64,000 nt of DNA from positions 18,766,760 to 18,830,759 of the forward strand of contig OX344762.1 of the NCBI GenBank assembly GCA_947034895.1, in the 5' to 3' direction. Source of the DNA: Rhytidiadelphus loreus. Its lineage: Eukaryota > Streptophyta > Bryopsida > Hypnales > Hylocomiaceae. The notes beneath the pieces were generated by a model. It was not told the origin of the DNA, ran no database searches, and saw nothing but the letters and a program-made list of their open reading frames with translations. Of this stretch, positions 7,070-48,310 are shown piece by piece; within the stretch, counting starts at the first letter, position 1, and each line of letters begins with the position of its first letter. A program made the position numbers and the translations under genes.

Positions 7070-7072
7070 TTA

Positions 7073-7464: not shown

Positions 7465-7496
<32 letters not shown>

Positions 7497-9671: not shown

Positions 9672-9675
9672 TCTA

Positions 9676-9700
9676 AACATCATATTCATTATTTTGGGAG
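9676..9700 (+). repeat. Left terminal inverted repeat of the giant element
   Basis: Identical over 25 bases to the reverse complement of 48286-48310. Its inner part, TTATTTTGGGAG, is also repeated in inverted form as CTCCCAAAATAA a few bases later (about 9711-9722), making a local hairpin present only at this end. TCTA precedes it. Confidence 0.85.
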
Positions 9701-9908
9701 ATTGAGGACCTCCCAAAATAACATTGTCTATTGTTGGGTCCTTTAAATGAAGTCGAATTGAAATGAACTTGAAATTGTGGAAACTAAAATTTCCAATTAT
9801 GTAAGACAATTTCCATTAAAATGATAGTTTCTTGTACTTTGGGAATCTCAAGCATTTATTGGTTGCTGTGATTACAGTCATTTTGGATTTAAATGCAAAA
9901 AATGGTCT

Positions 9909-10122
9909 GCATTGACCACCAAGTCATGAGCTGAATGGTTGGTTGGAAGGAGCTACCTATGTCATCCAGGTGGTCCAAGTTCGAATCTCATTGAACTCGT
10001 GTGAGCGGCTATGACATAGACATGACTTGGTGCTGCTAGTGAGCATAGCAAGCAGGAAAGTTGTAACCACCAACCGGCCCCCTACCAGAAATTGTGAAAA
10101 GTGCTTTACACGTTAACAAAAT
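9909..10122 (+). mobile_element. tRNA-derived SINE
   Basis: About 214 bp with RNA polymerase III promoter-like boxes: A box TGAGCTGAATGG near 9927-9938 and B box AGTTCGAATCTC at 9978-9989, a tRNA-like spacing. It is flanked by a near-perfect 12-bp direct repeat (AAAAAATGGTCT at 9897-9908 and AAAAAGTGGTCT at 10123-10134), which fits a target-site duplication. Inserted just inside the left end of the giant element. Confidence 0.75.
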
Positions 10123-10523
10123 AAAAAGTGGTCTTAGCCAATACCAATTTTTTGAACTCACATTACTTTTTTAAAAACATTGAGTTCCAGAACCAATTAA
10201 TACTGAAAAGAAACCAACATACATAATGCGCCACGAATAATATAATAAAAAATATATTAAATAAAAGAAATATTAAGTTCACTCACTCTTCAAGTGACTA
10301 CACACAAAATATTGAAGTACTTCTATATCAAATCTATGAAACTTAATCATAATATTCCAATCCACACCATCTATTCAACACAACACGCGTTAAATAATTA
10401 TATAAAATCGTCTACACTTATGCAATAGCATTACCATACCAAAAAACTAAACATATCGTCTATCAAACTTAAATTCAAACACTATCTTGGTGTCTTCGTA
10501 ATCCCCCATTAGTCCATTAGAGA

Positions 10524-13352
10524 TCAATCGGAAGTGTATGATGCCAAATTGTCATGGATGACTTCAATTTGAGCAGTAGGAATCTTAAGGACACACTCCA
10601 CTGTGTCCTTCTTCACCTTGGACCTCCATGCAGTGACAAGAGAGTTTGTGTCCTCCCATATGGGATCTTGCGTCTCATCCACTTTCCAACGTAGTCCTCT
10701 TACAGAATCCCAACTAGTGTAGAATTCTTGAACACTTCGGTCTCGCGAAGTGGGCCGAAAGTACTGAATTTGGATACAATTTGGATGCTCGGGATTAGTG
10801 AAAGGGTTAGATGAAGCCCTTGCAATCCATATAGGCTTCATATCAGCATCTGCTAGTCGAAGAGCAACAAAATAATGCTTCTGAACATCACACCCAACAC
10901 GGAAAGACGGCAATGGTTGATCGCGGCGTTGCCCTACGAAGGGATCATCCTTAGCAAACTCCTCACGAATCTCGCCATCATCATCAAGTTCATCCTCCTC
11001 TGCTGCCTCAACTCTAGTTGATGGCCAAAAGCCATCCATCAAAGTTTCATTTGGCACGATTGGCTCTATCAGACATGCTTTCACATTCCACCAATAGAAT
11101 ATCAAATGCTCAAATCGTCTTCTATACTCCAAACTCTCGTTGCATAATGCTTCCCAATATTTGATGAAACCGGATATGCCCTTAGAGATGTCTTCTATGC
11201 CCCGCATTGGAAGGTGGGCGACAGGTAGAGGCTCCCCACAAGGCCATAGACTACCTCCTTCAGAATCTTCTTTCCACAATTTGATCCCCCCTTCTTCAGG
11301 GAGCCAATCACTATCCGTGCAATACCTTTTGTACTTCATGATTGGAACACCCGAAGAGTTGAGGTAGAATTTAAATTGTTGAGCCTTTGTGTGGCCAACA
11401 AGTGCTTCGTCTCCATCCAGAATTGCACCTTCTATAAAGGCTTTGAAATCTGGTACCTCCTCAATCAAGTGAGGAATCGTAGGCACAGAATCCACATCCA
11501 TGAAAGACTTCATGAGGGATGGGATGGTAGGGAAGCTCTCTTTCTTCAACTGCATGCTCCATCTCCCAAACAAAGCATCTATGTCATCATGTGTATGGCC
11601 AACCAACATGAAACTCAGATACACCTCTTGAAAGATTTTCTTTGCAACTAGGAGTGACCAAAATGCAAAGACAAACCGGTTTTTGTTGTCTCCGGTGGCG
11701 TTGTCCATTTGAACATTGAGAACTGGAGGAAGAGAAGTCGCTGCAACAGGAACATCTGGCGCTGGTCGCAGGGATGATTGACAAATTTCTGATCCTTTCA
11801 ATACCGCTTCAAAGAGTGGAGCAGAGCATGATCCAACAAACAATTCTCGAGAGGAGTACTTTGGAGGGAGTTCTAGATCTCGCAAAAGCTTCGCTAAAGA
11901 ACCCACTGTGTAGTTCGAGTCGTGAAGGAAAATATCGAGTCCATAATGTGCGTAACGCACATCACCATGTCCATGTGCTATCATTCCGGTCATTGACACA
12001 GGCAACTTTGTCAGCCCATCAAGTTGCTTGCTCTTGTGGGAGAATACCGGTGATGCTGTCTTGGCATGATCCATTTTATCATGCATGATTGTTAAGCATT
12101 CGTGAGGGTATGCACTTGAGCTATATCGATTTGCATAGTACAAATCTCGGTGAGCCCGAGCACATGCATTATGTTTTTCCAGCTGCTTGTCCCACTTCTG
12201 TCGAGATCCAACTGGACATGCCCGCCTCATTGCATAAAATCTATCACAAACGGCACATCGAGCGAAGTTATCTCCAGGCTTCTTCACGCTGTACTCAAGA
12301 AAGTTCAATTTCCTGATTTTGCTTATGTTAGAAGGAGAGACTTTTCCCAATCCAAACACCGCATTTGCAGCGTTGATATCAGGAATTGTTTCTTTCCAAA
12401 GGAATGTGGCTGGCAGAACCTTGGAGACAACCTTCTCCCCAGATGGAAGGGTATGCGTGCGATGTGGCATATGGTCTGCTTCCTTCTCAAGCACACACCT
12501 CAATGTTGCACGGGCTTGTAGCGTATGCTTTCGAGCCTTCTGAGTCCCCACATTCCCGTGTGGTTGAGCTTGTTCACCTCTAACTGCATATCCTTGAAAC
12601 CGGTGGAAGGTGGATTCCGAGACACCTGCAATATGCCTCCATGCCGCCATGCAGACATCGATGCCTTCAAAAGTGACAACTCTCTTACCGAGAGCATCAC
12701 GGTGGACCTGTCGATGAACATCCAATTTCATGTGATAGCGGAACTCGAAGCTCATCTTATAGTACATTCGTTCACGAAAAGCTCGAATCTTCTCTCTAGG
12801 AAAAGGTTGCACACAATTCTTTGAGCAACAATCTTTGCTGGATACAAAATTGATAGATTCTGGCATGAGTAATTCGTTGGCTTTCACAGGTGCTTGAGGA
12901 ACGGACGGGTTCCTCAGAACGCTTGTGTATTGCCTTGCACCTGATGAAGAAGGCTGCAACAATCTCGCTTGACGTTTGTTGTACTCATCCTTGAGCTCGT
13001 GATCGTGTAGACTTGAACCATTCAGAAACACTTGTTTAATGGGCCATGCTCGAAGAGAATACCTCCAGTCCTTCGGAATGTCCTGAACGTTGAGGGACCT
13101 AGAGATGTGCACAGCTACAAGGGAATCACCCAGAGGGCCATCACCACCGACGACGAGATCGGAATTCACGTTGTGACAAATGCCCTCTCCCACTACAAGG
13201 CCGTTGATATTGTGCAAAGTCACAACTTTCGTACTCTAGGACAACCTAGGGATGCCATCGCAATCTGGAATGTCCATAATTTCTTCGGGAACATTTTCAA
13301 CCTCATCTAAGTCAGAGAGGTCATCCAGTAAAGGCTGAAGTGCCTCCTCCAT
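10524..13352 (-). pseudogene. Putative transposase with D..N...NKN / GHTHDDID core (DUF7869-like), one in-frame stop
   Basis: One open frame from ATG at 13352 to the stop at 10524, 942 codons, broken only by TAG at 13238-13236 (codon 39); after it 904 codons are uninterrupted. Visible order: acidic N-terminus; CCSKNC and basic segment (about 165-220); Cys-rich CAVCDRFYAMRRACP near 350-370; first acidic motif IMHDKMDH; QMDNATGDNKNRF; LVGHTHDDIDALFGRW; a C-terminal domain with IWIARASSNPF and YTSWDSVRGLRWKVD. The spaced Asp residues followed by NKN and GHTxxDID resemble the RNase-H-like core of proteins I know as DUF7869, widespread in plant and animal genomes and often transposon-borne. A catalytic DDD/E role is inference. 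Divergent from the ParB gene and preceded by the shared palindromes. It may translate from a downstream Met if the TAG is real. Confidence 0.7.
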
Positions 13353-13423
13353 AATGCCTGAACATTCATAAAAATGAATTAAAATTCATCAGTATGTTCA
13401 ATCAATTGAAAGTGTCCATGCAA

Positions 13424-13918
13424 TTTAACTCGGGTCGAGTTAAATGTTCGTCTATTCATGTTTAAATTCGATTAATTATTTATAAAAAACTGTCGAGATA
13501 GAAATCAACTCAAAATCTTCGGAAAACTTAACAGTCGCCAGATATTCAATGTCGACAGGATGAGAGAAATTTAACTCGACTCGAGATGAATATCTGGAAA
13601 TTTCATTCAGTCACTCATTCCTTGAACCACTATTGGTGTAATCGATAAGCATCCTACAGTTCTAAATTTGTAATCCTCACAGTGAAAACAACTCACAATA
13701 AATTTTTATTTTATTAAAATGTATTTTTCAGCTCTTTATGAGAATCAACATAATACAGTTTTCCTCCTATTATTATAGTTGAGTAGAATTGGATATGGCG
13801 GTTTAACTCGAGTCGAGATGAATTGATTTTATCTAGGAGATCAATTTGAATATTATTATCCTCGTCATCTCTCTGAAACCGATACTGTTTCCTTCAATTT
13901 AACTCGATTTTAGTTGAA
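13424..13918. repeat. Left cluster of TTTAACTCG/CGAGTTAAA palindromes
   Basis: Four 21-bp palindromic units upstream of the transposase-like gene: 13424-13444 (best match), 13570-13590, 13802-13822 and 13898-13918. Each has TTTAACTCG on one arm and CGAG(T/A)T(A/G)AA on the other around a 3-base centre. The same unit recurs 27 kb away around the ParB gene and, as far as I can see, nowhere else in the window. Confidence 0.8.
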
Positions 13919-14027
13919 TCGCAAGTGAAGAGACCATCTTGAAGCGAAATGAACCAATCTTAAAAATTATCCCGTAAATTCCGGCGGTTTTTTCGGAGCT
14001 ATGAAAACCCTGATTCAATTGAAACCA

Positions 14028-14880
14028 TCAACAACAGGAGCTGCGAAAGTCGACATCGACGCAAGGGAACATCACTATGACGGGAAAAGGAATTGGTTGC
14101 ACGACAGCAAAGTACATTACAACGTATAGGATGATTAAAATATGAATCCTCTGGTTGCGCGTGCTCTCAACAGAAAATAGTACGTAAACAAGTGTTTCGG
14201 GAAAACATAGCAAAGTAGATAGAAGAGTCTGTCTTTTCATACGCAAAACCTGAGAGATATAGAAGTTATCAATCGTAGAGCATGCTACCGTAATCTGTAC
14301 CTTGAAATTCCTTAATGCAATAACTGTCAAAGAAAGAACGGAACGCAGACAGATAGCAAGCCGAAACGAAAAGCAAAAACTAATGAAATGCTTAGCCGAC
14401 GAGGAGGCTGGCATGGCAGAGCAGCGCGGTGAAAGGCGGGAAGCAAGAAGCGGGACTGCGAGGCTGATTTGGAGGAATTTCAAAATGCTGTCAGACTACT
14501 GGTATTCTGGGGAGTGTAGAATATCCGACGCACATGAATACCATGCTATTGTCATCATTGTATAATTTTCTAGAAAAAGGACACAATCGAACTTGTAGTG
14601 AAGGGATTCTTCTTTGGCATTAAAGGATGAACTAATTCTGTGTTCCCCTTTCCGGAACTTCAGGGAAAGCAAAGATGCCGTTATGTCATTTTTGTGCGTG
14701 GCAGCATGATTGATTGTAAGGGACTCCCGACCTGTTGTCACCAAATTCTCCAGCGTCGTTGAAATTAGAAGGGAATATTATTTGCTGTATTGCTTTCCCA
14801 ATGTTCTCCAATACCTTTCACCGCTTTCCACCAAAAAATGAGGGACTTATGGAATGAATTCCAACGTCTACAAATAGTAA
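14028..14880. other. Non-coding or unrecognised interior of giant element
   Basis: A plus-strand open frame at 14302-14565 encodes a short, highly charged stretch (KERTERRQIASRNEKQK and a following Arg/Glu-rich part) that might be an isolated coiled-coil exon. No splice partners or homologue recognised, so no gene is called. Confidence 0.3.
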
Positions 14881-14892
14881 TCAGGGTCTACA

Positions 14893-14941
14893 ATTTAGGG
14901 TTTAGGGTATACGGTTTAGGGTATAGGGTATAGGGTTTAGG
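14893..14941 (+). repeat. Interstitial telomere-type repeat (TTTAGGG variants)
   Basis: About seven degenerate units of TTTAGGG mixed with TATAGGG and TATACGG. TTTAGGG is the plant telomere unit, so this is either a short interstitial telomeric tract or a 'telo-box' type promoter motif cluster. Confidence 0.75.
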
Positions 14942-15147
14942 TTCTGGATTCAAGTGTTTAATATCACTGCCCATAAAGAACTCAATAAACTCTTGAAGTG
15001 AAGTTCATATTCTGGCGATTTGTTGATAATTTGGACCTTAATACTTTGTGGATGTCTAATCGAACAGAAAGAAATGGTTCTAAGCGAGCGCAAATGTGCC
15101 CGACAACTTCAAACAAACGAGAAGAAGAAAGAAAATAATAAGTCCAA

Positions 15148-15944
15148 GTTTTAAATTTTTCCCCAAGTGCCTACTTGACCTTGAAGTTCATTTTTGTCTT
15201 ATTTTGAAGTTAGTGTTGTAGTGTATAAAATGGCCCAAAGGCTTCCATCAATTACCAAGCAACTCATGGAAAAAATATAAAGCAAAGAAAAAAAAAGATA
15301 TTCATACTATATTCCTAGTTCTAAATCCTTCCGCCAAGTGCAATGCATGACGTTGAAGTTTCTTTTTGTCTTGTTTTTGAAATTAGCATTGGAGAACATA
15401 AAATGTTCCAAAGAGTTGCAATGTTCTCAAAGAAGCTTCCATCAATTACCAAGCAACTCATGAAAAAAATATAAAGCAAAGAAAAAAAAAGATATTCATA
15501 CTATATTCCTAGTTCTAAATCCTTCCGCCAAGTGCAATGCATGACGTTGAAGTTTCTTTTTGTCTTGTTTTTGAAATTAGCATTGGAGAACATAAAATGT
15601 TCCAAAGGGTTGCAATGTTCTCAAAGAAGCTTCCATCAATTACCAAGCAACTCATGAAAAAAATATAAAGCAAAGAAAAATAAAATATTCATACTATATT
15701 CCTAGTTCTAAATCCTTCCGCCAAGTGCAATGCATGACGTTGAAGTTTCTTTTTGTCTTGTTTTTGAAATTAGCGTTGGAGAACATAAAATGTTCCAAAG
15801 GGTTGCAATGTTCTCAAAGAAGCTTCCATCAATTACCAAGCAACTCATGAAAAAAATATAAAGTGAAGAAAAAAAACATATTGATATTATATTCCTAGTT
15901 CTAAATCCTTCCCTCCAAGTGCAATGCATGAGTAGTTGACTAAG
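15148..15944 (+). repeat. ~193-bp tandem array, about four copies
   Basis: Landmark TTCATACTATATTCCTAG recurs at 15301, 15495, 15688 and (variant) 15881, giving periods of 194, 193 and 193. Each unit contains AAGCTTCCATCAATTACCAA and ACGTTGAAGTTTCTTTTTGT. The first unit is the most diverged. Not coding. Confidence 0.9.
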
Positions 15945-16924
15945 ATTGTGCCATGATACATTGGTACTTGTATTGTACATATTTATAAAAATGAATTGTA
16001 AATAGAATAAAAATGAATTGTAAATAGAATTGTACAAGAATAGAATTTATAGTCTTTTGAAATTTAATTTTTATAGACATATCTGATAATCACACACATA
16101 TTGAATGAGTGTTTTAGGGTAATTATAGTTTCATTATGAATTCTAAAACGTTCAATGTTGTGAACTCCTAAAGAGTAGAGGTTATTGGTGAAGTTCGACC
16201 AAAAGTCCGAAATTGCCTAGTACTCTAATGCATTGTCTAAAAAAAAGTATATTTTATGGTTACGAAAAGATGCTCTACAGATGCTTAGATTTCAAGGGTA
16301 GCCAAAAAAATTTTGGGCGGATGAATTTTATATTTTCACTTATAGGATGCATGTTTATATCTTCTATCCAAATTTTATAAACCTGTGATCAAAATTGACT
16401 TCTTACAATAGGAGCACAATATCAAACGAATTTTTGTGAACATGGTTGGGGGCAGGAGAATATTGAACACTTAAATTCTATATGTAAAATAGGCCTCTTT
16501 TAGAAGAATTATATACAACACGATAATGTTTTAATTATTTAAGACATGAATAGTTCGATTTCTTTGAAATATAGTGGACGAAATTGTTATGGTTACTACT
16601 AAATTTTACACGTGGGCTCCGAAGAAGCCTTTTTTTGAAGGAAACTTTTATGTAGGAAATATGTAGGAAACTTTTATTTCAACAGACTTTTGCATTAAGC
16701 CTTTATTGAATAATTAGTACAGAACTTCAGTTTCAAGAGGGTTCTTCAATTATTAATTGAACTTGAAAAAGCCTTTTTTTAAAGGTTCTTCTTAAATTTG
16801 TTTTGGTAAATAATGTAGGACTTACTAAATGGGCTCCAAAGAGGCCGTTTTTATAGAGAGGTTCGTAACTTTAATTTCAAGAGAGTTTTGCACTTAGTAC
16901 ATGCGTTTGAGGAAAGCCCTTTAT

Positions 16925-17075
16925 AAAGACAAGTATATAACTTTCAAGTCTTTCTAAAGACAAGTACATAACTTTCAAGCCTTTATAAAGACAAGTACAT
17001 AACTTTCAAGCCTTTATAAAGACAAGTACATAACTTTCAAGCCTTTATAAAGACAAGTACATAAATTTCATTTCA
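16925..17075 (+). repeat. 31-bp tandem repeat, five copies
   Basis: AAAGACAAGTACATAACTTT starts at 16925, 16956, 16987, 17018 and 17049, an exact 31-bp period; the linker is CAAGCCTTTAT. Lies just upstream of the promoter-like region. Confidence 0.9.
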
Positions 17076-17099
17076 AATGAATTTAGGACTTCTAGGATA

Positions 17100-18358
17100 T
17101 ACGGTTCTCAACTGGTCCTGTCCGGGTATCTGTTGGGGCACTTTGTCTCTCTCCTGGAAATCCGTGGAATCAGTCGCTAGGGTTTCGCTGAGCATGCCAA
17201 ACCTTCCAACTGCGCGGCCATGTGTTTGTGAGTGATTTTGAGTGTTTTCACTGCTTCATCGTATTCATAGCTTGTACAAAAAAGTAGTTTTCTCGTTCTT
17301 CATACTTCAATTTGTGTGTACAAAGACATCGTAGAAAATTGGCGTCATCGGAGTTGTGTTTCGCATTTCCGTACTTTGTTGAGTCTTGGGGCGGCATTCG
17401 TGGTTTATTCAGCCTTCGGGCGGCAAAGGCAGCAACAACAGGCAACGTGGCTTGCTGGAGGATTGGGCTTGCGTCGCCACCGGCAGCTGTTGCGAGCTCG
17501 CGAGGACTAGAGTTACAGGATTTCTGCAGTAGGCGGCAAGTTTTCAGGTATTCTTCTTCCCTTCTTTTCACACTACTATAGGCATGTTTGCTTTCTTTTT
17601 AGGGTTAGAAATAGAACCCTAAACCGTGGCTTTGCACATTGTGGGCTTTTTGCATACGGTCACCAAGAATTGTTTGCGTTCACAGAATACATTTTTGATT
17701 ATTTCTGAGCGTTTCGATGTGTGTTGTTTGCCAATTGGCAACCAGAAGTGCTTGCTTTTGTTTGCCTTCTGATTCAGGGTTTGCTTTCGATGTCGATGTG
17801 TCTTGTTTGCAAATGAGCAACCAGAACTGGCTGCGGTTGTTGCCTTCGTTATGAGGGTTTGCTTTCAGTATCAGTGTTTGGCAATGTCGTGGGTTTCCCG
17901 GATTTAGGGTTTCCTTTCTGTATTAGAGTTTTGCAATGTCGTGGGCTTGCATGATTGTAGCCTTTTTTTTTTGCATTTGGGTTTAGACAACAACCTATCG
18001 TTGTGTTGAATCCTTAGAGTTAGGATTTGAGGCTTAGAATTTTGCATTCACTGTCCAAATCGCTATAAGAATGGGTTGAATGCTAGGATGTGTTTGTTTT
18101 TAGCAATTGAGTTTAGGAATCACGTATCGTTTTCTTGAATCTGTTGAGCTAGCATTTCAGTGTTACTTGCATGGACTGTATGAATGGGTTGAATAGTTCT
18201 TGAATGCTAATTGCTGTATCAAAGAGTTGAATAGTTCTTGAATGCTACGAATGCACGGATCAATAAGTGTTCATAGATTTTTTATTCTTCTGATGCAGGT
18301 AGCAGAGTTTTAGGAGCGGACAATCTTCTGTAGTTCCATTATGCTGCGTGAACACCAA
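17100..18358 (+). other. Promoter-like/5'-leader-like region with a candidate intron
   Basis: GC content rises and the sequence has plant 5'-leader character (CTAGGGTTTCGCTG near 17180). A strong donor TTTTCAG|GTATTC at 17548 and an acceptor TTCTGATGCAG ending at 18298 delimit a ~750-bp candidate intron. The following exon would begin at 18299 and is cut at 18358 by the CACTA insertion. Rejoined across it, that exon would end at TTTGCAG|GTATGC near 39966. I infer non-coding leader exons of the ParB-like gene that starts at 40798. No long coding frame is convincing here. Confidence 0.35.
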
Positions 18359-18719
18359 CACTAGAAGGATGTCTTGTTTTTTGTGACAAGCGTAAAAACG
18401 TGGGTAGATGTTCAGTTCGTCGTCCGGCACGTCTACTGCGAATGTCTAGGAAAACCCGTCCAAGCTGACGAGCAAAAAACACGAGGAAATCAACATGAAC
18501 ATCCTCTATTTCCAGAAGAACGTCCCAACAAACATGGTTAATTTTTTGGCACCAAAGAAGCCAAGTGGCGACCACGTGAGCGCCATGTCAGCATGTACTG
18601 TAATTTTTTTTTTTGGCTGCAGCCCGTTGCTGACGTGGACAAAGACGTTGAAATTAACAGATAATGATGTGGCTTTTTAGAATTCTGACGTGGCTTCTGT
18701 CCTTAGCAGTTAGTGACAG

Positions 18720-31017: not shown

Positions 31018-31238
31018 CTCTTTAATGGCAGAATCCTCTTTCGAGTTTCGACACATTTTTGCTTACATGTTTGTATAGTAATTGCATTTACCAAAATTTC
31101 ATGGACTTGGGCTAAAATTGAAGAAGCTGCTTTTCTCAAGACTTAAGTGCTACATTCGATGAATGAGAAGGTAGTTCAATGAATCAGCGCTTGCTTGTCC
31201 TCCGTTAATTGTCCACAATATAGACGTCCGATCGCTTA
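31018..31238 (+). repeat. Dispersed ~205-bp repeat, copy B (inside CACTA)
   Basis: Alignable with 6598-6803: TTTAATGGCAGAATCC, ACATTTTTGCTTACAT, AAGACTTAAGTGCTACATT, GTCCACAATATAGACGTCC, ending near CTTAAGG. Presence inside the CACTA means the family was mobile, or the CACTA captured it. Confidence 0.65.
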
Positions 31239-31835
31239 AGGATGAACAGCAGATACACATGACAGAAAAACTTTTAGAAAATACTAAGCACGTTTTCCAT
31301 TACATGAAGTTGAACTTCATGAGAGAAACCATAATCACAGCATTATAGAAGTCACGTCTTCATAGAAGACCATTCTTTAGAAGAAACTTGTATTGGACTA
31401 ACAAAAAATATTATTGACGTCAGCCTATTCTTCTGATGCACGCCACCTGCAGGTATAGAAGCGTCGCATATGGTACATGTGGAGTACATTCCTGTAGTTG
31501 TCAAATGCATAGAAAACATTGTTTGTGCATATAAAGAGCTATACATGGCCATGTCGACGCCACGGTTTGTGGCTGCAGCAGCCCAAGCTCTTGAGCGTTT
31601 CAATTGCTGAACATGTTTTCACAGCAGTGGCATACGTCAACTGCCTTCAACCAATGTGTGGACATTATGTCTACATATATGCATGTCAGCATTTTTCAGG
31701 GCATGGATGTTGACAAGCATTTGAACAGTGTACCATTGTGCAGTAGTAAGTGCTGTATTTGTACCTGCAGTCCGCTTGCGTTCAACACCAATGACAACAA
31801 GCAAGGCAATACATGTTAGAGGAAGTTCAATCAAG

Positions 31836-34800
31836 ATGCCTGAATTTCGTAATCGTCCTACTAGAGTGCGCATCGCTAACGACGGTCGCACATTGCGACA
31901 CATCCCAGCAGGTGACCTGATTTTGCAGACAGAGTTGCGAGTGGCAACTGAACAAAATGTGCATGCGTTTCTATGCCCCTGCCAGGACTGTCATGGGGGT
32001 TTACGAAAAAGCATTGCAATGATTCGCAAACATCATGCTGCAGTCGGGCGTGATCCATTTCTAACAAAGTCTATGATTGGTGGAGACCCGCCTGAGGGAT
32101 ACCCTGCTCGGGGCATTTGGGTTGAAGATGTAGCATATGATGACGACGTTGTGGAGCACGACGAAGACTTCGATGTGGAAAGCGCTGATGTAGTTGACGA
32201 TGTGGTCGATATTGATCCAGGAGATGCGTCAGTTGATGCTGAGTCATTGCTGGATGAGTACCACGACGTACAAAGGCAAGTTATGGAGGCGCTCGATCGA
32301 GGAGATGCTCTACATAGGGAGACGCTGCCAGGGGACAATGTGCCAGGGGACAATTTGCAGGACAATGACGACATGGAGACGGATGGCTTGGACGGGCTAG
32401 AGGATTTATATGAACAGGCAACAACTCCATTGTATGCAGGCGCGAAGACAAGTGTTGTTTCAGCAATTGTTGTGATAATGAACATGTGCCTAGTGTTCCG
32501 TGTCAGCAACAAATTCCAAAATGAGTTGCTGCATTACTTGTCGGAAGACCTGTTGCCCATAGGAAACAAGCTTCCTGGTAGTCATTATGCAGCACGCAAG
32601 ACGATTCGACAATTGGGTTTAAACTACCATAATATACATGCATGCTGTAATGGATGTGTCCTATACGACGGTGAGCACGCGGCATTGGAGAATTGTCCAC
32701 AATGTCAGCAATCGCGGTGGTTGGAAGGAAGCTCAACAATTCCAGCGAAGGTGATTCGTCACTTTCCACTCATACCTCGTTTGAAGCGCATGTGGCGATC
32801 AGTTGAAATAGCGAGTATGTTGACAGGGTACACGAAGCACGTCAGCAATGACGGCATCATGAGGTCAGTTGTGGACAGTCCTGCATGGAAGCACATTGAT
32901 CATGATGTTGCATTTGGCAACTTCGGAGCTGAACAGAGAAATATGCGCTTGGCATTAGCATTGGATGGTGTCAACCCATTCAAATTGAGCAATACAAATT
33001 GGTCAACGTGGCCTGTGCTCATTTTGATATACAACTTTGAGCCATGGTTTGTTACGAAGAAGTTCTTCATTTCATTGTGCATTCTGATTTCTGGCAAGCA
33101 TTCTCCGACTTGCAGAAACATTGGGGTTTTCCTACAACCACTGTTGAAAGAGTTGAAGGAACTATGGGATGGGGTACCAGCACTAGATTTCAGTAGAGCA
33201 GAGGATTGTCGACGTTTTCAACTACATGCAGTGCTCATGTGGACCATTTCCGATTTCCCTGCATACGGACTCATAGCTGGCGTATGTTGTAAGGGTTACA
33301 AGGGTTGTGTGTCTTATAGACCTGAAACTGATGCACGAATGGCCAAAACGGGTGATGTTCTACGTAACCGCCGTAGTCGAGGTTCAAAGGTGGTGTATGG
33401 CGGTATGCGTCGGTACTTACCACGACATCACCCTTATCGTCGCAACAAAAGGTTCAATGGCAAAATTGAACATCGTTGTGAACCTCCTATCATGTCAAGC
33501 TTGGATGTGATCAGGTATGCTGCATGGAGGCAATCGTACCTTGACCTAGGTAGAAAGGAGAATGCAAAAGATGATCCCGTACATTGCACAAGCGTGAAAT
33601 TACTACCAGCACTATTTGAACTATCATACTGGCAGGTACAATTTTTGAAAGCGTCGAACAATCTTTTCAAAGGATGCCATGCATTAGTGAAGAACAAGTG
33701 TACAATGAAGTACGTACTATAGCGTACATTGTATATGTAGTTTGTATGGGAATTGTATCTTCAGTAAGTCTTGCTTGCATAAATATGCCCTAAAGAACAA
33801 CATTTGCAGTGTCGAAATGAAAGATGTCCACAATGTCCGAGCAATGTAGTTTAATGTACATGAAAATCAAAATAGTGCACATGCACAACAATGTATAGAA
33901 GAAATTCCAATGAAGGTGATGCATATGCTGTAGTAAGAGGTTAATGCATGCACAACATTACAGTGTACCTAATGCACATGACATGCTCTGTGACACAGCA
34001 TTTGTTGGCCCCACACATTTTGGATGTCATGCACTGCGAGAAGAATTTGTGTGAAAACATTTTGAAGACTATTCTCGGTATGAACGATAGCGTTGGAAGT
34101 CGACAAGATGCGGAGGACTTACAAGTGCGGGAAGAAATTTGGTTGCAACCAGGAAGGCGTCAGCAAGAGGAGTTGTACATGCCGCCCGCACCTTATGTAT
34201 TGAAAGCAGAAGAGCGCAAGGAGTTCGTTCACATAATTTCAAATATACGGACCCCAACGAACTATGTGGACTCAATTCACAAACGTTTGAGAGACGGGAA
34301 GCTGCAATATATGAAAACCCATGACTACCATGTATTGATGCAACAGGTATGGGAATGCCATTTCCATTATATGCTTCCGTACAACGTCATTGCATGAGTT
34401 GTAGTTCATATGCACTACGTGTTGTTGTTCATGTGAAGAATAGAATTAATAGTGATATAGAAGAATATGTGAAAACCAGTTTTACAAACGCAGGTTGACA
34501 CGTACACATGGTACATGACATCCATTGAAGGTAATGACATTCTATGAAATAGAGTACTATAAAATATAGACGAGTGCCTTGTGACACGCTAGAGGAATGG
34601 AGCTTGTACAATCGAAAGGACATTTTCAATAGAATTTATTTGGACACAACAAACGTTCATTGTCCACAATATTGATGTTAATTGTTTGTTTGTATGTGGT
34701 GCACAGATACTTCCAGTGGCTGTTCGAAACGTCTTGGACGACAATGTTCGTTTGGCCATCATAAGAATTTGCAGAGTTTTCCAAAAACTCTGTGAGAAAG

Positions 34801-35261: not shown

Positions 35262-35570
35262 TAAGTGTCTATAGCTCAAGACCCATGTTTTCATGTGCAC
35301 AAACCAATTGCAAGCAAAACAAAAACCATTTTCATTACTTAATTATTTATAAGCTTATGCAAATGTGGTTGGTATTGAATTAAAACATAATGATGAGTGT
35401 AGTATGCCCGATGCTTGTCAAGTTTGAAGTGATTGGTAGAATTATAATTCGAACTTCATAGACTACTTTTAAATATGCAATCATACAAAACATTATAACA
35501 GGCATCTGTATGTTAATCTACATGCATGCTATGCTTGAGGTACTGATGAATTGTTACTGCATGCATTTGC

Positions 35571-36415
35571 AGGGAGTACATTGTAGCAAAGGCAAGCAGA
35601 TGGGCAGAACGGGAAACATTTCGTCAGCATCACGTCGAGGTCGTGCTACGATGGGCGTGAGGTACCCGCCTGAATTGAGGGACTTGCCAAGTTTTGTTGA
35701 TTGGCTGCGTTCGCACATTAAGAACGCCTTGCGCGCAGGTGAACATGTCGATGCTGACATCGTGCAATATGCACAACCACCAGAGAGGTATGCTGTTTCG
35801 CATCGGCACATGCATGCATTTGGAATGCATTTACGAGTCCGAAGTTCCGAACATGCCCTCGTCACAAGAGACTCTTGTGTCGTCGCAACTTTCACACGGC
35901 AACTACGTTGGGGTCTTGTGAATGGAATGCCAATCGAGTGCACAGATGACTACGTCGGTTATATAGAGGAAATATTGGAGTTGGATTATCGAAATCATTG
36001 CACGACAGTGCTCGTTTGTGATTGGGTGAAGGCTCGCCGTGACATTCGTTACCCAACCATTCAGCGGGATTCTTACGGCTTCAGCATGGCCAACTTCAAC
36101 CACATGGATGGCAACGTGCATGCCGATTCCTTTGCGTTTCCCCTACATTGCCAGCAAGTGTTCTTTTCAGATGATCCACATAGACACGGTTGGAAGATTA
36201 TATGTCGGATAGACGTTCGAGGTAGACGTGGAGAAGTGCAATTTGCACAAGCCACTCCGAATGTCATCAATGTAGGCAACGATGACGACTTTGTAGGCCT
36301 CCAACCACGGATGTGCGATGTTGAGCCTACAAAAGAAGCTGCAACTGTAGGCGAGCAATATGTAGGTGTTGTACAAGATACTGGTGTTGAAGACAACCAT
36401 TTTGTGGAGGACTAG
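35571..36415 (+). pseudogene. C-terminal TNP2 / DUF4216-like segment, disconnected from the TNP2 frame
   Basis: After acceptor TTTGCAG at 35570 the phase-consistent frame reads EYIVAKASRWAERETFRQHH, the expected TNP2 tail, but begins with the TAG formed at the junction and ends at TGA near 35660. From there another frame continues to 36415 with SFVDWLRSHI and a DUF4216-like region (DYVGYIEEILELDY, VLVCDWVKARRDI, YGFSMANFNHMDG, HCQQVFFSDDP). So TNP2 and its tail are separated by a stop and a one-base frame change. Alternatively a separate product starts at ATG 35651 (MGVRYPPEL). I think this is incipient decay, but a real split gene is possible. Confidence 0.55.
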
Positions 36416-37521: not shown

Positions 37522-38000
37522 AACCCATAAATGACCATTGTCCCTTAGCTTAGGGGGACAAATGGAATTTCAGGCAGGTACGTATTGGCTGAAATTTTGG
37601 CCTCATTTTTGTGAAGTATTTTTCAAGTTACATAAGTTGATAAGTTTCGTGGGAATATAAATAATTATTTGTTTGGTGGCTACGAACAAAATTTACGTCC
37701 AAAGAAGCTCTAAACAAAGGACGGGAGGCCCCTCCGAAAAAAAAAAAAATCAGAAAAATATATTTCCAATTTCTTGCCCTTGTACATTAAATTTTTTTCT
37801 ACATGGAAATCTTTGATTCATTCCACATGGATTTGTGATGAGAAAGTTATGGACAATATTGTTTTCCGAGCAATTACAGCATTTTCCAAAAAACAACTAC
37901 TTATAGGATTCTTTTTTTAATGCTATTTCTGCAATTCTAAGGAAAAATAAATTTCACATGGTTCACTTCTCTTGCTAGAATAATTTTACCATTGGGATCA
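37522..38000 (+). mobile_element. piggyBac-like element fragment inside CACTA right arm
   Basis: Starts AACCCATAAATGACCATTGT and is collinear with the reverse complement of 50716 downward: shared GACAAA, AATTTCNGGCAGGT, GTGGGAATATAAAT, TTTTTTTCTACATG, TTTGATTCATTCCA and ACTTATAGGATT. The homology covers roughly the first 450 bases; I could not place its right end. Confidence 0.6.
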
Positions 38001-39540: not shown

Positions 39541-40082
39541 GATATAGTTGGGCCCCTGTGCTGCAACAGCATCCATCCATCCAATGTTTCCTGCGAAAGA
39601 ATCCTCAGACCGTACCGTCCTCTGTGTTCTGCAGCGACGGGCAGAGTTTCACCTTACCCGAAAGTTACCTACTGTGACTTACTAGTTGTAAAACGGAGAG
39701 AAAAAGCCAGCATGGCACTTCGAAATTCTGTTGAATGTCTCCCGTAACATTTTCACGTTTCCCGTGATGTCTTCTTTGACATCCATGTTCCACTGAACAT
39801 GACCATGTTCTTACTGTGACATGCCGGCGTTTTTTACAACATCACACTCAATTCTGACTCCTTGGGCCAAAGTCAAAACTTATACTTGATGTTCTAAACA
39901 ACAAACTCGTTCTACAGCAACGTCCACAAAAGCAAGGGCTCCTACTAGTGCAAGATTCTTTGCAGGTATGCACAGGAGTGGCCACAGTGATGCGAGTTCA
40001 TTGCATGAGTAACAGAAATGTCAGTGACATGGTTAGCAGGGGTAGTAATCATTGCAAAGAAAATTAACTCTTAGGGAGACAA

Positions 40083-40742
40083 TTTAACTCGAATGGAGTC
40101 AGTTTAACTCGAAGGAAGCCCTTTTCCGAGGTATGCAGCATAGAATTTCCACCATAGATCCTCTCGTTTCAACTTGATTCGAGTTAAATAGGATCCCTAT
40201 AGAGCGACTACAGTCCATGTGGACGTCAATTTAACTCGATTCGAGTAAAATCACCTACAGAATAGAAGAAATAATCAACTCCAATGAAAGATTTAACTCG
40301 AATCGAGTTAAAATTCACCAAATCCGGAGCATAACCTTCCTGAAAAGGACCAATTTAACTCGATTCGAGATAAACTGACAACCTCGGGCAATAGTAGAGG
40401 CCAGAAAGGTCCCAAAAATAAATCATCAAAATGAGAATTATGTACCCAGAAGTTCAAAGTAGGTAATCTCAACAAAACCTACTCAGCAGAGAGGAACATA
40501 TAGCAGTAAAATCCTAAGTCAGTTTATCTCGAATCGAGATAAACTGATGACAAAGACTAGTAGTGATTAAATACGAAGCCAAAAACAATATATTCCAGAG
40601 AGAACCATCAACCGATGGAATGAAAACCCTTTTTCATAGTCACACAGTTCAACTCGAATCGAGTTGAATTGTAAAAACAAAACAAGCACACAATGAAAAA
40701 TAACATCACCCGGTCGTGGTTTTTAACTCGAGTCGACTTAAA
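40083..40742. repeat. Right cluster of TTTAACTCG/CGAGTTAAA palindromes upstream of the ParB-like gene
   Basis: Eight good units in 660 bases: about 40167-40187, 40230-40250, 40292-40312 (near perfect), 40354-40374, 40523-40543, 40648-40668 and 40722-40742, plus degenerate ones at 40083 and 40103. Variants TTTATCTCG/CGAGATAAA and TTCAACTCG/CGAGTTGAA change both arms together, so the pairing is kept while the sequence drifts. Confidence 0.85.
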
Positions 40743-42237
40743 TTGATTACGATCAAAGTGCAATCATCTAACCATCTCTGTTTGTCCTGTAACAGAAATG
40801 GAAGATCAAATTCGACAACTATCGGTGTTCTTCAAGCCATTCAACATTGATCCTCAACTGAAGAACGCATACGGAGACGAAAAAGTTTTGGGAGAATGTT
40901 GGGAGTGGTCAGACCCTGAGAGAGTAGAGTACTGGACCATTATCCTGGTTCCATTTACCAACTACTTGGCTTTCAGGACTAAATACCATAACTCCAATGG
41001 CAATCTACCCGTCTCCTTGACAGAATCAGTGACAGAGTTCAGTGGAGGTCCTAATGGAGAGATTTTTGTATCATGCGAGACCCAAGACCCCGATCAGCAA
41101 GAGACATACATTTTCTCGTACATGGTAGATGCTACCAAGATACGATTCTGCATATCAGACTACGCGCGGAGCCTTATGGACACGGACTACGAACCACTTC
41201 TTCGCAATCTGCAGAATCACATCGACGAGAAACGATGGGAATCCGCAAATGGAGGAGAATTAACCCCTCAGGCTCTTCTTTCAAGGCTAAATCATCAGAA
41301 AATGGCCTTCGAGCGCATGCACATTAAACTCGTAGAGAAGAAGAGGGACATGCGACCACTTACTGTCGGAAGAGACTACAACAGCTAGGGAGATGGACAG
41401 TCTTCAATGGTGGTTGCAACTCCAGAGACTCGTCGCAGCGTCACAAGGCTAAAGAAGACGCAGGAATTCTCAAGAGGAATTCCACGGGACACACCACCAT
41501 CTGGGTCTAGGGGAAAAGCAAAGAAGGTTTCCGAGTCCACGGAGAAGTCGGCCGGGAGGAATGAAAGCCTTGTAACAGACCTGTCAAACATACCCCGTGA
41601 TGTCGGGAAGGACGTAAAGGACATAGACTACGATGAAGCCGTGAAATCGTACGAGGCCTACTGGTCAGAATGTACAGATTCATACGTCCCGAAAATAAGG
41701 TGGAAATTTACGTTGCCACTTGAGCAATTAGAGACCCCACCTGAAAACTTGAACATTAGAGGTCTGGAGGAGATGGGGATCATGAAAGCTCTAAATTTCC
41801 TAATAAACATGCTCGACCCAGACAAGAAAATGACCCTGTGCGCCATGCCGAAGGATGTAACGTCGAAGCCGAAAGATTTCGAGGAAATCATGAACGGGCA
41901 ATTTTACATGGTGAACGGGCAACACACAGTAGCAGCTGCCAAGAGGATGCAGGAGATGCCCAAATTGAGATCCAAGGCTGAGAAGTTCAAGAAATGGGAG
42001 TGCTTTATCATCTGGAACAAAGACGACCAAATCATTCAGAAGATCTCGGCTTATTACAACCGAGTGAACCATTTTCAAAACTTCACACCAACTTGGGCAA
42101 CAAACATCATCGGAGCCCGATATGTTTGGGAAAAGGTAGGCTGCCCACCACCAAACAAGGAGCCCAATGAGTTGGGAAGGGTTTTGGAGAAACCCCGGAA
42201 ATCCATCTCTGAGGCGTTGGCTCAGAAGAAGTTCAAG

Positions 42238-42368
42238 GTATATAAACAATTTAACTCGATTCGACATAAATTGTTTCTTGAATTACACGGTTCGATTGAG
42301 TGAAGTTTAACTCGATTCGAGATGAAATGAGATGAGGGTCATGACTAATTATTGATCTATTTATGCAG
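42238..42368 (+). other. Intron 1 of the ParB-like gene, carrying two palindromes
   Basis: Donor AAG|GTATAT, acceptor TTATGCAG|GAT. Of its 131 bases, two palindromic units at 42250-42270 and 42306-42326 make up a third. Confidence 0.8.
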
Positions 42369-43721
42369 GATTTTGCGGACCAGGTCAAGCTTCGTTTTGC
42401 AATGATTGACGTGAAGAAGAACCAGTCTGCTTTAAGTAGAGGGAAAGGGAAGGAGATCGACATTCATAACGAACTTAAAATTATCACCGCATCTAAGGAT
42501 GTCTACGAGCTCTGGGCTGAACTCATTTCAGCTCACTCGCAAGGAGAGCTCACTGATCTTGAGACATTGCTGAAGTTTCGGTAGGTCAAGGGTTGGGATC
42601 ACGAGAAGGATGGTGTGTTGACGCGGGAGTTTTTCAAGCATCTCGGTAATTGCTCAGCCAATGACTTGAAGCGGTTGGCATTGCACATGCTCAACAAGAC
42701 ACCGAAGCGGGGTCATTCCCATCCAAAGGTGACGCTCAAGCAAATCAAAAGCGTCCTCCCTGATTGCTACTCGGCGAAGGAGTGGCTGGAGCAGTGCAAG
42801 AGGAAGCAGATTATCAAGCTCCAGTTCCATAAGCTGAGGAAGGACTTGAACCTCGTGAGCAACAGTGGATACTTTCGGAGGGACAAGTGGAAGGACTTCA
42901 AGAAAGCCTACAGCGACACGAAGGCGACGAAAAACACACTCATCAACGGCCCTCCGGATGAGTACTTTTCGCAAATGAAAATGCCTTCAAACAAGAAGAA
43001 GAGCATTTCTGAGCTGTCTCCCTACGCCGCAGAATTCTTCAAAATTTTCCTCATGAGCAAGGGGAAGTTTGTGACGCCAGATGCCATCGCCTCGTACCGC
43101 ACATATGACATGGAGAAGGACGAAATCAGTATGTGGGGAGATCATATTTGGAAGGACAACTCGAGCTCAAACTTGAAGCTGGCAGTGTTGGACTTCCGAC
43201 AAATTCCGAAGGTCATAAACAAGGAGGGGTCTAAGGATGGGGATGCATACTTCGTGAATTTCCTGAAGTACCTTGAGGGCGACGCATATCCAGCAATAAC
43301 TGATCCTCAGGTATGACTATGGATTTGCGGTGAGAAGGAGGTTGAAGTCGATCTCCGCCAGTACATCCGGACGACGACGTTCGGCGAAGCGTACCTTGTT
43401 CACTACGCGGAGTATCTGCGTGGACCTCATGAGAGAATCGGGGATCTGTCCGAGAGGTCCACGAAGGCAAAGGAGGCCATTCAGCTTATCTTTCTCATTC
43501 GAAAGGGTTTCAGGCCGAAGGCCAAGAAGATACCTAAACGGTTCAAGATACTAGCTGATGGTAGATACGCAAAGTCCAAGTCAAGTAACGATGTGGACTT
43601 CAGAATCTACAACACGAACTTGCGCATGGACTTTTACATTCAAGTGCTAGATCTCTTCGCCTCGCCAAGGGAGGATGTTCTGTCCTACTTTGCAGGAGGA
43701 AAGATTATTTGCGCGGCTTGA

Positions 43722-43881
43722 GTATGTGATTTATGAAACTCTGTGAATTGGAATGACTGTTTCAATAGCATTGAGATGCATGTTTAACTCGAATCGAGTT
43801 AAATCTTTGCATTTCAAATCTGGGGGATTCAACTCGATGCGAGTTAAATTGTTGATATTGAACACTCTTGTCTTATTGCAG
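43722..43881 (+). other. Intron 2 of the ParB-like gene, carrying two palindromes
   Basis: Donor GTATGT directly after a TGA that replaces an expected sense codon, acceptor TTATTGCAG. Units at 43783-43803 and 43828-43848. Confidence 0.8.
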
Positions 43882-45176
43882 ATGCTTTCCCTCAACCACT
43901 TCGTTGTCGGCAATAAGAAGTGGAAGGACCGGTTCCAATCCCTAACGCAAGATTCAGAGAAATTGTCCAAGGACGATTTCTTGAATGGCAACTACCTCAT
44001 CGATTCAAAGGTTCACCAAAGGAGGGCGCCGAAGGGGTCATCCCGATCTGCCAAAGGGAAGAGGAGGATTACGGATGAAGAGGAAGCGGAGGAGAAGGCT
44101 CCGATTCATCTGGACACAGAGGACGAGGAGAATGACGACGACGATGTGCAGGAGATAGATAGCTGGCAGGATCCTGTGCCTGGGATTATTGACCGGATGG
44201 AGAGTTCCAGTGTGGGGACCTCGGGAGCGGGTGCTGCTAGTGAGAGGCCTCTTCCTGGGGGCGCATCGTCAGAGTTCTTGGGAAGGAGTGAACACCGGGA
44301 GACCTCAGATGCGTCTGCTCAAGTACCCCTCACGCCCACGCCAAGTCTGCCTTCTCAAACGCAGCCGAGTACGCGCTCCTCGCAGAAAAGGAAGAGGGAC
44401 CCAGTGATTCCTGCGTCGCAGCAGTGGCTTGTTGACTACGTCGCCGCCTCCAATGCACAGAATGAGAGAAATCGGGAAGCCGATTTCGAGAGACGAGAGG
44501 CATAGAAGGGAGCGGGAGGCGGATAGGGAGGAAGACAAAAGACTTCGATTGGAATCCAGGAAAGAGACCAATGACATGATGGTTTCCATCCTGCAAACCG
44601 TAGTCCCAGACATGGTGGCCAAGGCTGTCCAATTCTTAAACATGAAGCCCCTCTCCGTGGTCGACCCTTCATCCATGTCCCCGCAGCTCATGATCGGATA
44701 GCATGCGCATGCATCATCTGACAACATGACGCATCCGGGATCAGCTTCGCGGAATCCGTCGCTCAATTTAACCCCCGCTTCGACCCCTGCACAAGCCTCG
44801 CACCAGTCATCTCCGATTCTGGATACCTCACCATCGCATTTGAGGGACGTGTCCAGTGTTCCTTCGGCTGTGGGTACTGAAGCGCATGAACAGCTAGACG
44901 GGGAGACTGAAGCGGATAAATTTCCGGCCGAGGGTAATGCAGCGGGGGAAGTACAACCCGAGGAGGCAGCAGCGGATGAATATCAGGCGGAGGGTAATGC
45001 AACGAGGGAAGTACAGCCTGAGGAGGCTGATGCGGATGAATATCATGAGGAGGGAAATGAAGAGGATGTCAATCCAACTGAGGAGACTGACGTGGATGAG
45101 TTTCCGGATGACGAGACTGCAACGAAGGAAGTACAGTCCGAGCAGTCACAGGACCCTATGACTGGTGATCCTCCAG

Positions 45177-45392
45177 GTTGTTCCCTGTGACTCTTTCAGA
45201 CTGTATTTCAACTCGATACGAGTTGAATTGCATTCCGCTGCATTCAATTTTTTCCTAGGAGGTAGTTTCGGAGGGAGGAAAGGTCAGGACAGATATTAGG
45301 TTCTTCATATGTAAAACTATATCTCTTTTGAGATAGTGTAATATATCATTTGCCTTACTGTGTGTTTTGGTGTTCATCGTTTTATTTCGCAG
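45177..45392 (+). other. Intron 3 of the ParB-like gene, carrying one palindrome
   Basis: Donor CCAG|GTTG and acceptor TTTCGCAG|AA join a split Glu codon to the next exon. Palindrome at 45207-45227 in the TTCAACTCG/CGAGTTGAA form. Confidence 0.65.
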
Positions 45393-46966
45393 AACACATT
45401 GTCGTGGAACCAATCCTTTCCAACATCTCATTGGATTCTGGTAACCCTGCATCACAATTCAGTCCCGTGCGTTCTGTCTCGTTGTCGCTAGATACACCGG
45501 ACCATTCTCCTCTAGACTTTGTGTCGCTTGAAGAGCCTATTCCAAACGTGGGCGGGAATGTGGAGGACGTGAGTGTAAAAACAGTTACCGAACCCATTGA
45601 CGAAGCTCTACCAGAGTTTGAGAGTCCACGAGAGCCAGAGGTGAAGTGGGATGAGGTAGATTTGAATCAGGAACTTAACGTGGATGAAGAAATTCCTGAA
45701 AATGAGGTTCTGGAAGTGGAGGAGCTGCGAGAACCTGATGCGGAATGGGAAGGTCCTAGTTTGCCTGATGAAATTGAGGGAGATGTTGATGTCGAAAATT
45801 ACACGGAGACACTTCAGAAGGACAAGGATGTATCAACCGATATAATTCCTGAGAAGACGCCATCGGACGTTGTGGTGAACTTCCTTACCAAACTAAATTT
45901 GTTGTTGAATTATTGTTCCAGTGTCTCGCGTGTTTGTATCCCCTTCGTCCATAGCGCCTTTAGTTTTGAACCAGCACGGGCCGCTGCACTTAATTAACAC
46001 TCCAAAAATTTGGCGTTATATCATAGTCAGGTTAGCAGTCAGAGAACAAATCCTGTAGGTGGGGAGGGGGACCAGGTTTCTGCACCATTCAAGTCCAGGT
46101 CCACAGGAAAGTGGCTTAATGTGATCCTGGATCTGAATGGCCTCCTCTGCTTCTGTGACGATGTGAGATATCACATAAGTGAGAAGAGATTGTGCACTCC
46201 CGATGAGAAAGTGCTAGAGAAAAACGTCTTGCCTTTGGGGAGGGTCGTTGCACGCTCCCACCTGAAGACTTTCCTACAAGAGTTATCTTCGATCGCGAAC
46301 GTCATGGTGTGGAGTTCCATGAACCGGTCGTACGCCCTACTTGTATGTCATTTCCTCTTCTTTCGAATGGATCCGCCGGTGTGTATTCTCGGACAGGAGC
46401 AATGCAATGTCTTGAAACAGAGATCCAGGAACGGGAGGCTTGTAAATTACAGAGTGAGGGGGGCAACAAAAGACCTATGGGTGAAGCCGTTGGAGAAGTT
46501 GTTCAAGATTAAGAACACCGTCCTCACCAAAGATAATACTTTGATAGTCGACGATGTCCCTGAAAAACACTTCATGAATGATCCAAGGAATGTGGTGCTT
46601 TTTGAGTCGTGGTCGTTTGAAGGATGGGGTGCCAGGGAAGGGCTTCTCATTGACCACCTTCTTCCTTGGATTAAAAAACTGCACTTCGATTATCGCAAGG
46701 AATTGTATCGATTTCGGTCAGACAATCCAATGGGACGCTTCCACCTTGTAGATGAACCAGATCAGACACAATACCAGGAACTACAGAAGGCATTAGACGT
46801 CTCCAGTTCTCTACGAGCAGAGTGGATTGAAGAAAATCCGGATTGTCCCGTGAATCCGTGGATGACAGGAGGGTCGGAGCGCAAGGACATTAAGAAAGAG
46901 GATATGTGGTTCCTTCCATGTCTTCCTCCCCCGAGAGAGGATCCCCAGACTTTGGAAGATTTGTGA
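45393..46966 (+). pseudogene. FCP1/NIF-like phosphatase domain, probably the 3' part of the ParB-like gene
   Basis: An acidic exon begins at 45393 in phase with the preceding one (EHIVVEPILSNISLD then Glu/Asp/Pro-rich linkers) and runs to about 45872. A second exon, from an unresolved acceptor between about 46018 and 46072, runs to TGA at 46964. It contains the FCP1-homology pattern of HAD phosphatases: WLNVILDLNGLLCF (motif I), SHLKTFLQELSSIANVMVWS, a basic middle part, and TLIVDDVPEKHFMNDPRNVV (DD motif). FCP1/SCP enzymes use DxDx(T/V); here motif I is D-L-N-G-L, so the second catalytic Asp is Asn and catalysis is doubtful. The family acts on the RNA polymerase II tail and other nuclear substrates; a role here is unknown. 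Linking it to the ParB part rests on strand, spacing and splice phase. Confidence 0.6.
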
Positions 46967-47172
46967 ACAGAAGATGATTTCCAATTAACTCGGATGATCT
47001 CTTCTTGTTGTATAAATGCATTCTCTTGTGTAGGCACATCTTTGCTTATAGAGGATCGGATGATGTCATGGTCCAATCCATTGCGACCTGCCGGAGATTG
47101 ACAATTTTTTCGAACTCTGTTTGTTCCCAGGGTTTGCGTGCTACTACAGTCAGTGAAATTTAGTGTACATAC

Positions 47173-47908
47173 ATGTGTGCTGCCTCTGCTGATTCGTTCT
47201 CTGACTATGGACAGTTTGACATATCGGAAGGTGTGTTGGGGCACATCATGTATTCCGCAGCCACGGCCCAATCGACCATGGACTTCTCAATCATGCATGT
47301 TGATGATGGTGTTGTGGACAGTCCGCCGAATGGGGGGAAGTGCTCCGTTCCTGTTAGCTCGCCTTCACCTTTAAAAAGCCGTATGCATTCCCCTTCAGCT
47401 GCGGATCATGATGGGATGAACCCTGTGACCCAGAGGAAGTTGTACGGTGCTGATATGGTGGTGGACGCGGTCCATCAGGTATGGCGTTCTTTCACGAATG
47501 TAGCATTTCTTTCGATAGAACGCATATTACGTTATTGGCATGGTAAACTTATGATCTCATGTTGTTGTGTAGGGAGATGGCCAGAACGTCGCTAAGTCCG
47601 TCATTCATGTCAATGAGACACAACCTACAAAACTTCCTTTTAAAGAGCGGCATATGGCATCTAAGGGCTCGTTGCCTCCTTGACCCAAAAGCAATGTCCT
47701 TGCTGTAGCAGACCAGAAATGCAAGACTCATGATGGACAACTTCATAGTTATTCCCCTCGTCGTCCTTGGGATGTTGCGGAGCAAAGGTCCTTGAAGAAG
47801 CAACGGCGAGAGTTTCTACACCAAAGATCCTCTAATAACAATGGATACAGCCGAGGGCCTGAGATGTTGAAGGCATTGATGATTTTGAAGAGTAGGTCGC
47901 ACTCCTAG
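47173..47908 (+). pseudogene. Small unrecognised gene at the right end of the giant element
   Basis: Two exons, 47173-47478 and 47573-47908, join in phase 0 (CATCAG|GTATGG and TTGTGTAG|GGA). The product begins MCAASADSFSDYGQFDISEG, is Ser/Asp-rich, and ends with a basic segment (EQRSLKKQRREF). A single in-frame TGA at 47681-47683 interrupts it; the frame then stays open to TAG at 47906. Family not recognised. Same strand as the ParB/FCP1-like gene and only 206 bases after it, so it may also be alternative 3' exons of that gene. Confidence 0.5.
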
Positions 47909-48285
47909 TACCTAGATTGAAGGCCATGGAGGACATTGGACTCTGAGTGAGGTGGATGACATATAGAGTGATGTACAATTCCGATGTGAAACTCATATAC
48001 TATTCAATGATATAGAATACAAGGCTCATACAACTCTGCTATTTTGTAGCAATGATAAGAAGTCATATTTTACATAGCACTACGAATTTCAAATTGTAGA
48101 AATTATTCTTGCTAAATACATGTAACTACTCATTTTGCAAACTATATGTAATTACTTCGTGTACGGAAATTCAAACTTCGTACGTGCTTCGGCTGTGATT
48201 GTATTGAATTTCGTCTATTTTGATGAATAAATCCATCAATTTTTCAACCTAACCCTTCCCCCTCAACTCCCATTTCATTGAAAAA
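47909..48285. other. Right non-coding flank of the giant element
   Basis: AT-rich 3' region between the last coding exon and the right terminal repeat; AATAAA near 48226 could be a poly(A) signal. No palindromic units here. Confidence 0.45.
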
Positions 48286-48310
48286 CTCCCAAAATAATGA
48301 ATATGATGTT
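48286..48310 (-). repeat. Right terminal inverted repeat of the giant element
   Basis: Mirror copy of 9676-9700, 25 of 25 bases, followed immediately by TCTA at 48311-48314, matching the left flank. Confidence 0.85.

Follow-up and report, generated by a model that had tools for sequence, protein, structure and literature searches.

The window analysed here, a 64,000-nucleotide stretch of contig OX344762.1 from the moss Rhytidiadelphus loreus, contains a very large transposon-like element delimited by two perfect 25-bp terminal inverted repeats, at positions 9676-9700 (plus strand) and 48286-48310 (minus strand). These are the only two copies of the repeat in the window, and exact genome-wide matches and end comparison (see below) identify them as the element ends. 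Both are bordered on the outside by TCTA (9672-9675 and 48311-48314), the target-site duplication, read directly from the sequence and from flank comparison. Repeats and borders are as a preliminary description of this DNA had given them, and so is the size, put there at about 17 kb: once an inserted CACTA element and one copy of its CAA duplication are subtracted, 8,683 + 8,357 bp remain (~17.0 kb). The same description recognised three gene models. We count four: a DUF7869 gene and, on the opposite strand, a ParB-like gene, an FCP1-like gene and a small fourth gene.

The CACTA element is separate from the large one and occupies positions 18359-39950 (plus strand), with a Transposase_21 domain at 31725-33722 and a DUF4216 domain at 35462-36415. 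All CACTA hallmarks are present, namely CACTAG/CTAGTG ends, a 3-bp CAA/CAA duplication (18356-18358 and 39951-39953) and the Transposase_21 match (E=1e-58). Another genomic copy of the large element, E43, holds the corresponding empty site, in which window positions 18358 and 39951 join with a single CAA. This shows that the CACTA inserted later, in line with its initial description as the younger of the two.

The DUF7869 gene (10524-13352, minus strand; PF25273, E=5e-45) begins with an ATG at 13350-13352, is interrupted by an in-frame TAG at 13236-13238 and then continues as a 903-codon frame (10527-13235). Its product had been proposed as a transposase candidate, and modelling speaks for the proposal: the core is predicted to adopt an RNase-H/DDE fold, closest to the Mos1 transposase (5hoo, 3hot; 12-13% identity), with candidate catalytic acids (D386/D389, D511, D551/D553) at comparable places. 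The predicted core would thus be the RNase-H-like catalytic core of a DDE/D enzyme. The model of the whole protein was poor (predicted local distance difference test score, pLDDT, 61.5) and yielded no structural match. Mos1/mariner elements duplicate TA and are roughly a tenth as long as the moss element, which has 4-bp duplications. A homologue search, in which only the 7,988 candidates with the most words in common were scored, returned proteins from Ceratodon and Physcomitrium as those with a named organism (among the matches listed, 120 of 130). A literature search on DUF7869 found no paper; the present data link this Pfam domain of unknown function to a probable role as a DDE/D transposase.

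The ParB-like gene (40798-45190, plus strand) comprises exons at approximately 40798-42237, 42369-43721 and 43882-45190, the last end being a guess, and is decayed by TAG and TGA stops. A search of 5.8 billion proteins yielded a single homologue, KC19_3G000200, numbered beside a DUF7869 gene. For the ParB/methyltransferase label first given to the gene, profile searches gave no significant match, either to ParB or to an N4/N6 methyltransferase. They yielded only DUF6551 (E=0.06) and phrog_31036 (E=0.19), around NGQH of P0121, and searches of PDB sequences gave no meaningful match. No DPPY motif was seen by eye in A4, which has LDFRQ/VDFRS near the expected place. The ParB-like identity of the protein is suggested by a motif and by analogy.

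Downstream, the FCP1-like gene (45395-46966, plus strand, 5′ limit guessed; E=4e-12 for PF03031) carries a NIF domain at about 46121-46684 that scores well above the PF03031 cut-off (46.7 bits against 21.8; P0122, 46.1 bits). FCP1/SCP phosphatases have a DxDx(T/V) catalytic motif, at which the three FCP1-like proteins examined read DLNG (the window gene), DLND and DLHG. With the second acid missing, an active phosphatase is doubtful. The small fourth gene lies at 47119-47905 (plus strand), in two pieces (47119-47478 and 47573-47905).

The third component of the element is a 21-bp palindrome, TTTAACTCGAnTCGAGTTAAA, with 16 sites in the window (up to 3 mismatches) against 0 expected from 100 shuffles. 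All 16 fall within the element, on both sides of the CACTA, as the preliminary description of a private palindrome family implied. Four lie directly upstream of the DUF7869 gene (13424-13918) and seven directly upstream of the ParB-like gene (40168-40742), with a weaker one at 40083. Two more are in ParB-like intron 1 (42250-42326), two in intron 2 (43783-43848) and one between the ParB-like and FCP1-like genes (45207-45227).

The 407-Mb assembly (489 contigs) was searched for further copies of the element. The exact 25-mer has 62 matches (32 on the plus and 30 on the minus strand), a reversed-pattern control having none. Every one of the 62 sites runs on into the left or right end sequence of the element, for at least 20 bp past the repeat. 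Over a comparison span of 475 bp, 25-mer included, the better end match of each site covers 45 to 475 bp at 70-100% identity, with many identities at 93-99% and a second group at about 70-77%. Besides the pair in the window, four inward-facing pairs less than 50 kb apart were fetched whole, and all proved colinear with the window element minus its CACTA: E43 (19.0 kb, flanks CAAG/CAAG), E74 (22.5 kb, unmatched flanks TTAA/TAAA), E25 (30.2 kb, flanks TCTT/TCTT), whose middle is lost together with any match to the ParB-like gene, and E66 (49.2 kb with nested insertions, flanks TTTT/TTTT). In a sixth pair, 71 kb apart (C2:13234037/13305181), the ends alone were read; the flanks are TCAT/TCAT and the match at the right end is limited to 63 bp. 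Thus, five of six inward pairs, E74 being the exception, have identical 4-bp flanks, a different 4-mer each time. Left out of this count were C3:50554466/50632521, whose ends come from two subfamilies, and C3:5258526/5331618, an apparent inverted duplication in which both ends are left ends and share one flank. Four-bp flanks by themselves match by chance about once in 256 cases, and a fortuitous inverted repeat next to TCTA might be invoked on that ground. The 62 copies, all continuing into the element, together with the differing matched 4-mers, rule this reading out for practical purposes.

Among the best 50 of 2,172 first-look candidates for genomic DUF7869 copies, 19 of the 21 that are at least 85% identical (the window's own included) are accompanied, on the expected side and no more than 6 kb away, by the exact end; in 17 cases the distance to the gene is 850-854 bp. 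At 75-82% identity the exact end accompanies 5 of 29 copies; in 4 of 4 sampled from the remaining 24, an end differing at 3 positions stands at a distance of 782-794 bp. Neither of the findings that the preliminary description had named as fatal to it, repeats scattered at unrelated places or gene copies devoid of these ends, is borne out. In 18 of the 50 listed copies (one of them the window's own piece) no stop interrupts the DUF7869 match, and most of these have frames of 900-980 codons, so that some lineages look young. Two other loci, the copy at 22.7 Mb of C1 and L072, are truncated or interrupted. The two facing left ends at C3:5258526-5331618 (L026 and L027), 73 kb apart with identical flanks, reflect either a duplication of large size in inverted orientation or a palindrome introduced by the assembly.

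Nested in copy E66 is an element of a second family, N, 19,303 bp long. It has ends of its own (AACGTTATATTCAAAATTTTGGGAG), which differ from each other by 1 mismatch, and flanks TGAT/TGGT (1 mismatch). All four genes of the window element are present in N, arranged and oriented alike, with the ParB-like gene opposite in strand to the transposase gene, as also in E43, E74 and E66. Its proteins are considerably diverged: DUF7869 is 62% identical overall to the window protein (59-75% by piece, tblastn), the ParB-like protein 27-41% by piece, the FCP1-like protein 37% (E=4e-52) and the fourth 35% (E=1e-27). A further group, M (L070 and L071), has DUF7869 at 77% identity and, in L071, a ParB-like N-terminus at 47%; its intergenic DNA gives no alignment with the window at E 1e-8. 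Yet another DUF7869 relative, 32-35% identical, was noticed inside an interrupted copy (joined L001+L068+L069, 8672-11388) and by its divergence is a still more distant family of the same genome.

Ratios of nonsynonymous to synonymous substitution (dN/dS) for DUF7869 are 0.08-0.12 between subfamilies (four comparisons with high synonymous change, leaving aside one that was fully saturated); two near copies give 0.46. Between copies, the ParB-like gene gives 0.16-0.25, its comparisons with M and with N being saturated, and the FCP1-like gene 0.18-0.25, its comparison with N being saturated. These values bear on the idea that the three accessory genes (ParB-like, FCP1-like and fourth) are passengers from the host, captured in the manner of Pack-type elements, and play no part in the life of the transposon. 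In its favor, FCP1-like proteins with PF03031 form a general family, and a search confined to proteins of 0.55-1.75 times the query length found no FCP1-like homologue in Ceratodon; KC19_3G000100, considered as one, was dropped, this search having returned P0122 alone. Nonetheless, all three genes keep their order in the diverged N family, dN/dS is low (0.16-0.25) for both accessory genes examined, and the lone ParB-like homologue is numbered next to a DUF7869 gene. We consider the passenger explanation improbable and have set it aside on the strength of the conserved order and the low dN/dS. As far as sequence comparison can tell, three accessory genes beside a probable mobilising enzyme are conserved in two diverged families.

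The palindromes likewise recur. Sites of the window type are present in all four other copies of the window family (up to 3 mismatches) and are kept in group M despite its unalignable intergenic DNA: at up to 5 mismatches, L070 has 9 and L071 has 16. N has a palindrome of its own, TTTAGCGCGAnTCGCGCTAAA, with 20 sites (up to 5 mismatches) against 0.15 expected from 20 random sequences. At up to 3 mismatches this type is found inside N only, and one N site matches both types. Though different in sequence, the N palindromes occupy places corresponding to those in the window, with one extra site 3′ of the FCP1-like gene that lacks a window counterpart. Upstream of the ParB-like gene, palindrome bases agree between the window and E66 at 157 of 168 positions (the site at 40083 included) as against 492 of 679 for the other bases; upstream of DUF7869 the contrast is smaller (75 of 84 versus 550 of 666). 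Such conservation is strong sequence-level evidence for a function. In N, most palindromes 5′ of DUF7869 are about 100 bp apart, giving the segment (positions 3752-4450 of N) a phased-array-like appearance. The idea that the palindrome is centred on a conserved GANTC methylation site was rejected, several sites in both families having failed to keep it; GACTA, for instance, stands at three of the nine N sites 5′ of DUF7869. The most novel aspect of the element would appear to be these 21-bp palindromes, which precede both main genes, occur in introns as well and differ between families at corresponding places.

What binds the palindromes may be considered in two ways. Lying immediately 5′ of both main genes and within introns, they could serve as promoter elements or as enhancers of transposition, with either the DUF7869 transposase or a transcription factor of the host as the binding protein, a reading to which we assign a little under an even chance. 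Against it, the terminal repeats, at which a transposase would be expected to act, have no palindrome nearby (up to 3 mismatches), and a host factor poorly explains two different palindromes among families of one genome. The pattern fits a co-change with a candidate element protein. More tentatively, this eukaryotic transposon might carry its own parS-like system, in which the ParB-like protein recognises the arrays of 21-bp palindromes at promoters and in introns. Protein and site would have changed in concert, and diverged families (N as opposed to the window family and its relative M) would mark only their own kind, perhaps countering host methylation or regulating copy number. Bacterial ParB-parS likewise combines a protein that has a ParB-like motif with palindromic sites near its gene; dissimilar are the want of a significant ParB profile match, the site sequence with its odd, 1-nt centre, and the fact that no ParA was seen among the genes identified. 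The occurrence of different palindromes at equivalent places in the families is a natural experiment for telling which protein of the element recognises the element's DNA, and makes the proposed self-marking role of the accessory proteins directly testable.

Elements of the Sola1 superfamily produce 4-bp target-site duplications, as do five of the six pairs above. Curated bivalve Sola1 elements average 5,445 bp (PMC10294476), far below the size of the moss element. A much closer parallel in plan is Sola1-1_Ec32 of the brown alga Ectocarpus, printed in 2025, a 21.5-kb element with a ParB-methyltransferase gene (1104-amino acid product) opposite the transposase (PMC12477816). Most of the giant families described there bear nested insertions, and their transposase gene is often pseudogenised (PMC12477816). 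The gene set had initially been described as belonging to no recognised system. This no longer holds for the giant size and the opposite-strand ParB-like gene; it stands for the FCP1-like and fourth genes, conserved in two families of the moss element, and for the palindromes at promoters and introns, none of which is mentioned for the Ectocarpus element in the available excerpts of PMC12477816. The main text of a review of giant transposons (PMC6431247) contains neither "Sola" nor "ParB". By its plan, the moss element thus appears to be a variant of giant Sola1-like transposons. Membership of another DDE/D superfamily, or of an unnamed one, is the less likely assignment: 4-bp duplications also occur in Ginger1 (PMC2836005), but the flanks of the moss element differ from the CCGG/CCGT of Ginger1, and size and layout match Sola1-1_Ec32. 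In addition, a Physcomitrella Sola1 is named in a review table (PMC9033089), a moss match by name only; DUF7869 proteins occur in Physcomitrium. Altogether, we hold with a probability of roughly 85% that the window contains one decayed copy of a family of giant (~17-19 kb) cut-and-paste DNA transposons, whose plan most resembles that of the giant Sola1 element from Ectocarpus.

In the mechanism that we envisage, the DUF7869 protein would bind the ends, excise the element and join it to new DNA at positions staggered by 4 bp. The promoter and intron palindromes would be bound by the ParB-like protein in a parS-like, self-marking or self-regulating role, and the FCP1-like and fourth proteins may aid expression or escape from silencing. 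Copies would then decay through CG/CHG methylation-type C-to-T change, the window copy acquiring an early stop in DUF7869 and being hit afterwards by the CACTA. The left arms of the window element and E43 differ by 114 transitions and 15 transversions over 5,121 aligned bases, with changed cytosines at 38 of 341 CG, 34 of 311 CHG and 42 of 1,522 CHH sites, which as read from the alignment is the pattern of cytosine-methylation decay.

A scan of viral_contigs gave no match. The spacer of the window element contains tandem repeats at 15241-15931 (194 bp) and 16918-17072 (31 bp), the 194-bp array also aligning in E43, E25, E66 and E74. Outside the element, window positions 58592-63770 recur within E66 (5159-10211) and are for that reason probably another transposable element. 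On the other side lies a host gene for a sodium:sulfate symporter/dicarboxylate transporter (4445-5971, minus strand; PF00939, E=4e-86).

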